Assembly (NCBI GenBank): GCA_001776635.1 | Contig: MFCP01000008.1 | Coordinates: 1-41,860 of the forward strand | Source of the DNA: Candidatus Daviesbacteria bacterium RIFCSPHIGHO2_01_FULL_40_11 | GTDB taxonomy: Bacteria; Patescibacteriota; Microgenomatia; Daviesbacterales; UBA10151 | Direction of reading: 5' to 3' | Length of the DNA stretch: 41,860 nt | Shown: positions 30,083-33,596 of the stretch, in pieces | How positions within the stretch are numbered: the first letter of the stretch is position 1 | How the letters are laid out: every line of letters begins with the position of its first letter | The notes under the pieces: model-generated | What the model was told of the DNA's origin: nothing | The model's database searches: none | Seen by the model: only the letters and a program-made list of their open reading frames with translations | Program-made: the position numbers and the translations under genes

Positions 30083-31810
30083 ATGTCGACCTTTGTATTT
30101 TTAGGCTTATTGCTTTATTCTTTATTCTTTATTCAACCTGTATTTGCAATTGTCAATCCTCTCTCCGTCCCCAACAACAAGTTCGGGATCCACATCATCC
30201 AAGCTACCCCGGATGAATCTTCACCTGCAGCTAAGCTTGTTAATACTAACGGTGATTGGGGTTATATTACAGTTTTGGTCGAAAGTAAAGATAGAGATCA
30301 TAATAAATGGCAGGAGTTTTTTGATGACCTGCGCCGCAGACACTTGATTCCGCTGGTAAGGCTGGCCACAGAGCCGCAGGGAAACTTCTGGAAAAGACCC
30401 TATGAGAAAGAGGAGGAGGCTTGGGCAGATTTTTTAGATGCCTTAAATTGGCCAACTAAAAACCGTTATGTCATCGTTTACAACGAACCTAATCACGGTA
30501 CAGAATGGGGAAATAAAGTTGACGCGTCCTCTTATGCAGAAGTTCTAGATAAGACTATTACAGCGCTTAAAAACAAAAATCAGGACTTTTTTGTACTCAA
30601 CGGCGGCTTTGATGCTTCCACCCCCTCCAAACCTCCCGTATATGAAGATCAGATAACATTCATGAAAGAAATGAATAAAGCCGTACCGGGTATTTTTGAA
30701 AAATTGGATGGCTGGGTTTCTCACTCATATCCTAACCCGGCTTTTGCAGGATCTCCGGCGGCAGTTGGCAGAGGAACCGTAAGGAATTGGTTTTGGGAAA
30801 TACAGCAACTTCGAAATCTTGGTGTAACTTATAACTTACCGGTTTTTATTACCGAAACAGGCTGGAAACATGCGGAAGGCTTAAGCTACGATTCAAGATT
30901 GCCGGACGAAGAAACTGTAGCCAAGTATTACAAAGAAGCCTTTGAGACTGCTTGGAATATCGACAGGATTGTTGCCATAACTCCTTTTTTATTAAGCTAT
31001 CAGGAGATTCCTTTTGACCACTTTTCGTTTAAAAAACCGACTGGAGAGAAACAAAATATCAAAGTCTTGAGTGTTGCGTATCCTGAGTATTATTCTATGT
31101 ATCAAACAATACAGGATTTACCAAAAGTTACAGGTAAACCTGTTCAGGAAACAAAAGCGCTTCTTACAAAAGGCGAAATTTATAGCTCCATAATTTCAGG
31201 GGAAATCTACACAATTTCTTTAACCTTTAAAAACATAGGCCAGTCAATCTGGAATGATAGGCAGGCAGTAATGCTGCAACCTATTGAGGGAGGTCAAAGC
31301 CTGGGGATTACAGGTATTGAGCTACCTGAAGATAGAAAGATTGAACCCGGACAGGAATACACATTTAATCTAAATTTAAAAGCGCCTCAAAGCGGAACGT
31401 ACAAAGTCTCCCTTAATTTGTTTGATGGGAGCAGTCAATTTGATTCAAAACCTGTTGAATTTACCACAGAAGTTAAGTCCCCTGTCGTTTTGAAAATTTT
31501 GTCTACGCTGGGATGGAAAAAAGATTTTGCAGGAGCTTATGTCCTAAGAATTAAAGGGATAAGCGAAGAAAGCGCCCAAGCCATAACCTTAAATACGGAA
31601 GGGGTATCTCCCGAAATAGAAGCAAGATATCTGCTGCCGGATTATTCCTTTGAGTTCTCTTTGGAAAAACCTTTTTACAAACCCAAAACTATAAATCAAA
31701 AAGTCTCTGCCGGAGTTAATACCTTAGATTTTGGGGTCCTGCAGCCGGATATATTTACCGCAATCTTACATCCTAAGGAGCTTTGGAAACTGTTACCTTT
31801 TTCTAATTAA
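30083..31810 (+). CDS. Secreted clan GH-A-like glycoside hydrolase with C-terminal Ig-like domain
   Basis: Signal peptide; VIVYNEPNHGTEWG (possible acid/base Glu), LPVFITETGWKH (possible nucleophile Glu). Confidence 0.75.
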   Translation: MSTFVFLGLLLYSLFFIQPVFAIVNPLSVPNNKFGIHIIQATPDESSPAAKLVNTNGDWGYITVLVESKDRDHNKWQEFFDDLRRRHLIPLVRLATEPQGNFWKRPYEKEEEAWADFLDALNWPTKNRYVIVYNEPNHGTEWGNKVDASSYAEVLDKTITALKNKNQDFFVLNGGFDASTPSKPPVYEDQITFMKEMNKAVPGIFEKLDGWVSHSYPNPAFAGSPAAVGRGTVRNWFWEIQQLRNLGVTYNLPVFITETGWKHAEGLSYDSRLPDEETVAKYYKEAFETAWNIDRIVAITPFLLSYQEIPFDHFSFKKPTGEKQNIKVLSVAYPEYYSMYQTIQDLPKVTGKPVQETKALLTKGEIYSSIISGEIYTISLTFKNIGQSIWNDRQAVMLQPIEGGQSLGITGIELPEDRKIEPGQEYTFNLNLKAPQSGTYKVSLNLFDGSSQFDSKPVEFTTEVKSPVVLKILSTLGWKKDFAGAYVLRIKGISEESAQAITLNTEGVSPEIEARYLLPDYSFEFSLEKPFYKPKTINQKVSAGVNTLDFGVLQPDIFTAILHPKELWKLLPFSN

Positions 31811-31864
31811 AATTGGTATATTTTGACCTATTTTGTCTTAGTTGACAAGGGATATAATTTAAGT

Positions 31865-31978
31865 GTAGAGTGATAGAACCTGTTAAAAACTTTAAGTCGC
31901 AAGACAAAAAGTTTGCATCAGTCGAAAGACAGATATTGACAGGTTCTCTAAGGAAGCCCCGCAAGGGGCTTTTTTAGT
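31865..31978 (+). ncRNA. Candidate standalone structured small RNA with two GNRA tetraloops
   Basis: 12-bp stem agaacctgttaa/ttgacaggttct; hairpins aacttt-aa-gtc-gcaa-gac-..aaagtt and atc-a-gtc-gaaa-gac-a-gat; TATAAT at 31853-31858; terminator follows. Confidence 0.7.
31954..31975 (+). terminator. Rho-independent terminator
   Basis: aagcccc-gcaa-ggggctttttt. Confidence 0.9.
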
Positions 31979-31988
31979 ATAAATTATC

Positions 31989-33050
31989 TTAGGGTGTCGC
32001 CTTTGGTTTTCCAGTGGTAATTAATATATCTACGTCCAGTGAGTCGAGATCATTCTGGATTGAAACATTATCAAACTCTTCCTGAAGCAGGGCAGCTATC
32101 TCATTCTGTAAATCTGGGGCCACTATAGGGGAGAAAATGACTATTGTATCTGTGGTAGATGCTCCTCCGGCATTATCTACTTCAATTTTTGACAATCCTA
32201 ACGGGATAAGAAGATTCTTAATTTTAACGGCCTGGCCCGCTATGCCCGTACCGTTTAAGATACTCACCCGCAACCGATCCTTAGCTAAAGTTGCAGACTC
32301 TGTGGAGGTTTCAGGTGCCGCAGACTCGGTGCTGATAGAGGTGGGTGAAGCTTCTAAAGTTGCCTCTGTTGTCTTAAGGTCTTTTTTAAATGCAGTTCGG
32401 GATTGCTTCAAATATATATTAATTAGAAAGAAACTTAGGATGATAACAATTGCGAGCAGAAACAAAATTATAGCTAAAGCCTGCTTGCTTTTACCTCCAT
32501 TGCTTAAGACAGAGCTGTCATTTAAAAAATTTGCGCTCTTAAGGAATCCCCTATCTTTGTATATCTTCCTTACAATATCTTCATTTAAGCTATTATCAGC
32601 GGAATAAAGAGACAGCGGCACCACCGCCAAAACCTTAAAACCCAACCCTTCCAAGGTTTCCAAAACTATTTCAAATAATTGTTTATTAACTGCAAAAAGA
32701 TAAATATTCGCATTTAATTTAACAGTCTTTTTAATTAGTTTCCCACTTTCAAGGGGTATCATTTCTGTAAAGTCTGCCAGTTTTTCATCCAGCAGTTTTA
32801 AGTCTGTGGCGGGAATTAATTTTTTAAAAATAATCTCCTCTGATAGCACCAGTAAAACCCTCTGGCTTTTTATGTTTTCAGCAGTAATAAAATCCGCAAT
32901 AAGCTTACTGTATTTAGCAGGGTTTATAATATCTTCTTCAGAAACAGTATCTTCCGGGAACTCAAGATGTTTTTCCTCGCCATTTATATAGAAGCTCAGG
33001 GAATTTTTTTGAATATAGATTGCCGAAGGGTACTTCTCAAAAAAAATCAT
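31989..33050 (-). CDS. PilM-like protein with C-terminal LytR_C-like domain
   Basis: Actin-like/PilM-like N part, central TM ALAIILFLLAIVIILSFFLINIYL, then RLRVSILNGTGIAGQAVKIKNLLIPLG...TDTIVIFSP typical of LytR_C. Confidence 0.65.
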   Translation of the reverse strand: MIFFEKYPSAIYIQKNSLSFYINGEEKHLEFPEDTVSEEDIINPAKYSKLIADFITAENIKSQRVLLVLSEEIIFKKLIPATDLKLLDEKLADFTEMIPLESGKLIKKTVKLNANIYLFAVNKQLFEIVLETLEGLGFKVLAVVPLSLYSADNSLNEDIVRKIYKDRGFLKSANFLNDSSVLSNGGKSKQALAIILFLLAIVIILSFFLINIYLKQSRTAFKKDLKTTEATLEASPTSISTESAAPETSTESATLAKDRLRVSILNGTGIAGQAVKIKNLLIPLGLSKIEVDNAGGASTTDTIVIFSPIVAPDLQNEIAALLQEEFDNVSIQNDLDSLDVDILITTGKPKATP

Positions 33051-33083: not shown

Positions 33084-33596
33084 TTATCTGGAGACTGAAA
33101 TTGTGGTGGTTCCGTCAGTATAGCAAGCCTTGACAGTTACTATGCCGTTCGAATCTCCTTGCACGGAATAACCGGTTTTAGCATCACTTCCTAAAGTTGT
33201 ATCCGGGTCAAAGGGCATAGTTTTAAGGTATTTGCTAACGTTTTGTGATCCAGTCATTAAATCAGTACAAGCTGCTGCTGTAATGGTACAGTCAGAATTG
33301 CTAATTGTGCATCCGGCAGCATCAGTCCCCAACTGCACTTCGGTTCCTGCAGCCGGCATGTTGGATGGATAAGTCCCTTTATTATCCACAATGGATTGGT
33401 GAATAGCGGATAAAATCGAATCCAAGTCCGATGCCCGTCTGGCATCCTTAGCATCTTTTAATCTCTGAGCGGGGTTTAAAGCTACAAATACCGACACAGC
33501 CAGTATTGCCACAATCGTTATGGCAACAAGTAATTCAATTAAGGTAAAGCCTTTTTGCTTACTCTGAAGTAATCTGAAATGGGCAGAAATTCTCAT
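33084..33596 (-). CDS. Type IV pilin-like protein
   Basis: QKGFTLIELLVAITIVAILAVSVFVALNPAQRLKDAKDARRASDL. Confidence 0.95.
   Translation of the reverse strand: MRISAHFRLLQSKQKGFTLIELLVAITIVAILAVSVFVALNPAQRLKDAKDARRASDLDSILSAIHQSIVDNKGTYPSNMPAAGTEVQLGTDAAGCTISNSDCTITAAACTDLMTGSQNVSKYLKTMPFDPDTTLGSDAKTGYSVQGDSNGIVTVKACYTDGTTTISVSR

Follow-up and report, generated by a model that had tools for sequence, protein, structure and literature searches.

The window, that is the whole stretch of 41,860 nucleotides analysed here, carries a + strand gene for a 575-aa protein (30083-31810) and a - strand gene for a 353-aa protein (31989-33050), and the 178-base gap between the two holds a predicted small RNA gene. 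Against Pfam, the sole match of the 575-aa protein is DUF4832, weak and sub-threshold. A LytR_C domain was found in the 353-aa protein, and a pilin-type methylation motif in the one encoded next to it at 33084-33596; both are consistent with the pilus operon that a previous, sequence-only reading of this DNA had proposed. The 'GH-like' label that it gave to the 575-aa gene stays tentative. In the gap that reading saw an apparently undescribed, stand-alone RNA, built as a three-way junction with two GNRA tetraloops and a terminator. A check of the sequence finds all the elements it named at the positions it gave, among them a + strand stem of 12 bp with one G-U (31875-31886/31936-31947), and the ORF positions agree with its remark that no coding sequence follows the RNA on the same strand.

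Promoter and predicted transcript ends

The features of the locus, as revised by our analysis, are the following.

31813..31841, + strand: conserved block 5' of the -35 box, with TTG triplets at ~10-bp spacing (TTGGTATATT TTGACCTATT TTGTCTTAG) that run into TTGACA
31842..31847, + strand: -35 box TTGACA, its distance to the RNA fixed in relatives
31866..31871, + strand: -10 box TAGAGT after an 18-bp spacer; relatives have TATAAT, TATAGT or TAAAGT in the equivalent place
31878..31976, + strand: predicted small RNA of ~98 nt, from a putative start at A31878 to the terminator T-run, based on start motif, fold and covariation
31878..31886, + strand: 5' strand of P1, pairing with 31936-31944, from fold and covariation
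31888..31913, + strand: P2 hairpin with an internal loop and a GCAA tetraloop (GTC-GCAA-GAC), backed by covariation
31917..31934, + strand: P3 hairpin with a GAAA tetraloop (GTC-GAAA-GAC), often a CYYNAAAA-type loop in relatives
31936..31944, + strand: 3' strand of P1, from fold and covariation
31945..31947, + strand: UCU linker from P1 to the terminator stem, conserved in sequence (UCUC if the first terminator base is counted)
31948..31976, + strand: intrinsic terminator, CTAAGGAAGCCCC-GCAA-GGGGCTTTTTTAG, previously placed at 31954-31975

Related genomes with a BLAST match number 19 out of 56, and a covariance model (R1) built from 11 of these 19 finds the RNA, at E <= 0.01, in 34 of the 45 genomes of the family, i.e. 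about three quarters, mostly Candidatus Daviesbacteria of the Candidate Phyla Radiation (CPR). Usually there is one copy per genome (two in G030), and about a quarter of the 45 family genomes searched gave no R1 match. Mostly Candidatus Daviesbacteria also account for 16 pattern matches, and no viral contig has an exact match to the terminator-side pattern. Weak R1 hits in G002, G004, G010 (its second), G016, G022, G023 and G064 have no promoter/P1 arrangement and resemble terminators occurring by chance.

As for the promoter, the sequence-only reading had offered two boxes, of which TTGACA at 31842-31847 is indeed the -35 of the RNA promoter with its spacing conserved. Its partner is TAGAGT at 31866-31871, not the TATAAT at 31853-31858, which lies only 5 bp from TTGACA and off the conserved -10 position. 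When the best -35/-10 pair was taken per locus, and likewise in the controls, a pair scoring at least 13 was found just upstream in 33 of 35 loci, as opposed to 4.2% of control windows. Moreover, a start motif, [AG]C[CT]T, lies 6-7 nt past the -10 box in 32 of the 35 loci (controls: 23 of 947 windows). Transcription probably begins at A31878, which would leave the outer AGA/TCT pairs untranscribed and the UCU linker single-stranded; hence, all 12 bp of the closing stem are present in the DNA but P1 as transcribed probably has ~9 bp, in an RNA of ~98 nt. A start at A31878 fits with the linker, whose UCU sequence is kept in most relatives, even where no 5' partner exists. That the RNA stands alone, as first proposed, agrees with an independent promoter being retained in relatives whose neighbour genes differ.

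Further upstream, the TTG-triplet block (31813-31841) is kept by most relatives within the genus and several within the family, and a pattern search for the TTG-phased promoter matched the window at 31813-31846 with zero mismatches. The block is possibly an UP-like element or a direct-repeat site for a regulator. A wider regulon of this promoter was not evident, since most of what the pattern search of 18 genomes returned was coding sequence or the RNA, and two other promoter-like hits precede protein genes.

Fold, covariation and variable architecture

Folding of the window RNA gives a minimum free energy of -46.6 kcal/mol (z -7.86; none of 200 dinucleotide shuffles was as stable), and the fold drawn in the sequence-only reading turns out to be both the minimum free energy and the centroid structure. 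Without its terminator the body still reaches a z of -6.1. The bodies of homologues, folded freely and without any model (L078 in G061 was omitted for want of a clean promoter), are more stable than shuffles in 34 out of 34 cases, with a median z of -4.5 (range -2.75 to -7.6), and each of them reproduces the layout.

For covariation, 22 relatives were aligned to R1 (alignment A2), a fit to the model that favours structure and against which the following values are to be read: 95.4% of cells are paired compared to 78.5% in column shuffles, both-sided changes occur at 24 of 37 pairs, and the covariation score is 0.371, compared to 0.143 +/- 0.010 when shuffled and <=0.081 when slid by 1-3 columns. 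At the level of single helices in A2, P1 has double changes at 3 of 9 pairs, P2 including its inner stem (helices 2 and 3) at least one at 9 of 9 modelled pairs and P3 at least one at 5 of 5 modelled pairs; in the terminator, 98.3% of cells are paired and 7 of 14 pairs show double changes. Conservation of P1, P2 and P3, along with that of the terminator, is thus backed by compensatory changes among these 22 relatives.

What does not survive comparison is the three-way junction as the defining feature, since the number of hairpins, most of them with GNRA caps, ranges among relatives from one to at least three. Seven genomes (G003, G005, G007, G012, G014, G057, G060) have one hairpin plus terminator in ~60 nt, three-way-junction relatives measure ~85-118 nt, and G025, G028 and G065 have three or more arms and up to ~170 nt. 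Invariant across relatives are the ends, 5'-ACYU...ARGU-UCUC-terminator, and conservation lies in the promoter, these ends (5'-ACYU and ARGU-UCUC) and the terminator.

Also weakened is the suggestion that the two GNRA loops of the window RNA, with their identical GUC/GAC closing pairs, point to tertiary docking. GNRA caps are over-represented, closing 50 of 64 body loops, whereas in shuffles the GNRA share is 1.3% over all loops and 5.6% among loops of four bases. However, several relatives are single-hairpin, and P3 of three-way-junction relatives often carries an A-rich loop of 8-9 nt of the CYYNAAAA type (CCTTAAAA, CCTAAAAA, CTTTAGAA) where the window copy and several relatives have GNRA, and this frequent replacement weakens the specific docking idea. 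On these counts GNRA caps are a real feature and the window's particular pair of loops is not; given how strongly they are over-represented, the caps may make an A-minor contact. We rejected a pseudoknot between the P3 loop and the terminator CUAAG, the complementarity being seen by eye in G006, G008 and G020 (UUUAGAA/UUCUAAG) and not in others.

A search of Rfam 15, over the whole window and then over the locus alone (351 bases), returned for the window tRNAs, two sub-threshold matches on tRNA-containing stretches and nothing else, and for the RNA no family at its gathering score. This places the RNA outside every curated family and agrees with the sequence-only reading, which recognised no known class in it. 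It has its own promoter at a conserved distance, an intrinsic terminator and a structure with compensatory changes, as expected of a stand-alone sRNA, and we take it, with a probability of about 95%, to be a real, conserved and undescribed RNA gene of the Daviesbacteria lineage.

Possible function and rival explanations

Comparison of the loci shows a sigma-70-type promoter at fixed spacing to the RNA, a probable start at the first base of helix P1, and a body folded into P1 plus one or more mostly GNRA-capped hairpins ahead of the intrinsic terminator, with compensatory change keeping the helices as the arms vary in number and sequence. Synthesis may be constitutive or under simple promoter control, and since almost no base is left unpaired and a helix takes in the 5' end, the RNA is expected to be very stable. 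Our preferred, albeit tentative, suggestion for its mechanism, to which we give somewhat less than even odds, is that the RNA serves as a scaffold or sponge that binds a protein. This protein would recognise the invariant parts, namely the base of P1 (ACYU/ARGU), the single-stranded UCU linker and the base of the terminator stem, and the hairpin arms would be modules that are dispensable or add avidity. That the P1 base and linker are invariant while other helices change freely points to sequence-specific recognition. Alternatively, promoter escape could account for the constancy of the 5' end, and shared ancestry could in part explain why both ends are conserved.

A protein-binding scaffold or regulatory sRNA seems most likely, and likelier than an antisense RNA: a scaffold or sponge better accounts for a transcript with hardly any free sequence, a 5' end in a helix, an invariant linker and P1 base, and arms that appear dispensable. 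In the antisense alternative the sRNA would act in trans, with an exposed loop or the UCUC linker pairing to mRNAs. This alternative remains because of the A-rich P3 loops, which could act as a base-pairing seed; many three-way-junction relatives share the CYYNAAAA-type loop, the UCUC linker is conserved, and purine-rich ribosome binding sites could be targets of both. Yet P3 is GNRA-capped in the window copy and several relatives, the one-hairpin relatives offer no free seed but UCU, and unstructured stretches never exceed a few bases, and to our minds antisense action is unlikely.

A broader idea is that of a class-wide Microgenomatia RNA acting by shape, as an RNP scaffold in apparently SRP-less cells. 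A strong promoter would drive a very short transcript made only of one to several mostly GNRA-capped hairpins and a terminator, and the RNAs of f1 (Daviesbacteria) and of families f6 and f29 would be versions of one gene. R1 run across 382 genomes of the class gave weak hits in 7 further genomes (E 6e-4 to 0.009). Those in G081, G220, G201, G150 and G259 look like chance, as does a weak hit in the archaeal record L089; the remaining 2 of the 7 belong to one f29 genus, and in them two hairpins and a terminator come after a promoter. At four f29 loci (L106, L110, L131, L132) a TTGACA-17/18-TATAAT-type promoter likewise precedes two hairpins and a terminator. Some relatives (G014, G019, G027, G057) use a TTGGGGNGTTGACA promoter box, which a scan of the same 382 genomes found at 35 places in 33 genomes versus 2 for the reversed control. 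Among 30 of these loci that were read, 4 are the Daviesbacteria RNA, 5 are f6 units and 10 are leaders of small membrane proteins. The f6 loci (L135, L136, L137, L139, L140) hold a nearly invariant unit of ~55 nt with a GNRA hairpin (GCTTATCGCAAGATAGGC) and a terminator, and the f6 and f29 units are similar in layout to the Daviesbacteria RNA. The class-wide reading as a whole is, in our estimate, rather unlikely. As a separate observation, at the leader loci (G000:C15:24863-24876, L142, L145, L147, L150-L155) the TTGGGGNGTTGACA promoter is followed by a T-run hairpin, a possible attenuator, and a gene for a small membrane protein of ~125-150 aa, two members of which were tested and gave no Pfam match over cut-off.

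Could the RNA instead be a mere 3' UTR or transcription-termination module of the upstream gene, with no trans function of its own? At 16 of the 35 loci a member of the 575-aa gene family directly precedes the RNA on the same strand, in the window by 66 nt, and the terminator would end both transcripts. In the other 19 loci, however, neighbours or their arrangement are different and the RNA and its promoter stay together, and conservation with covariation is not confined to the terminator but takes in the P1-P3 body. The differing neighbours speak against a simple 3' UTR of the 575-aa gene, which we hold to be quite improbable, and argue in favour of an independent gene, often placed behind it.

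About as doubtful is the idea that, in a reduced genome, the RNA stands in for a housekeeping RNA such as a 6S-like or other RNP RNA. It would go with the single copy in most hosts, the strong conserved promoter and the lack of matches to standard counterparts: 6S RNA (RF00013) has no match in the genome itself at E<=10 (control detected in 8 of 14 genomes), and small SRP RNA (RF00169) has nothing above cut-off in 43 family genomes (0/43) and no match on the window RNA. These searches led us to reject identity with 6S and, together with the protein domains, with SRP RNA. The Ffh M domain (PF02978) and the SRP54/FtsY GTPase domain (PF00448) are over cut-off in 0 of 14 Microgenomatia genomes each (G000-G008, G033-G037; SRP-search controls detected in 12-14 of 14), and with SRP RNA and SRP protein domains both below cut-off, it looks as though the pathway is missing and has not been replaced. 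A replacement is further opposed by the lack of a 6S-type long bulged hairpin, by the mere ~60 nt of some relatives and by the family genomes in which R1 finds no match. Scarcely credible is a chance fold or a mobile, palindromic repeat of the MITE/REP type: conserved ends, a variable interior and no fixed gene neighbour would suit a mobile repeat, but nearly all hosts have a single strong copy, the promoter and terminator distances are fixed, and copy number and strong covariation already contradict the idea.

Significance and comparison with known RNAs

To our knowledge, very little is known about small RNAs of the CPR, and full-text searches of an open-access library found no paper on small RNAs of this sort in that group. 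A gene present in about three quarters of a family with genomes of roughly 1 Mb makes an accessible case for studying structured RNA in reduced genomes. Its ends are invariant and hairpins come and go in its interior, and it can be used to ask what a reduced genome keeps a structured RNA for; the RNA also provides a concrete probe for metatranscriptomes.

Among curated families, the best sub-threshold match to the locus is Atu_C8 (RF02502; 21.0 bits, gathering score 50, E 0.081), which resembles it in having a GC-rich terminator hairpin behind a structured body; the aligned pairing is chiefly that of the terminator, and the window RNA is not a member. The Bacteroides sRNA BTnc231 (RF04180) does not match the window RNA and scores 36.8 bits, versus a gathering score of 80.4, on the f6 units (L135-L140), where the alignment crosses promoter sequence and rests chiefly on the terminator stem, so this resemblance is one of layout only. 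With type III toxin-antitoxin RNAs the comparison fails on two counts: no conserved toxin gene adjoins the 35 loci, where the sole recurrent immediate neighbour is the 575-aa family, whose window member has no Pfam toxin match, and there are no tandem near-identical repeats, the arms differing in sequence within each RNA. Like 6S RNA, the window RNA is stable, highly folded and stand-alone, but it lacks the long hairpin with a central bubble. Sponge RNAs of the CsrB/RsmZ type are stand-alone, vary in hairpin number, end in a terminator and show GGA in their loops for CsrA/RsmA. The Daviesbacteria RNA shares with them its stand-alone nature, the variable count of similar hairpins and the terminator, and differs from them in presenting GNRA tetraloops rather than an array of GGA loops.
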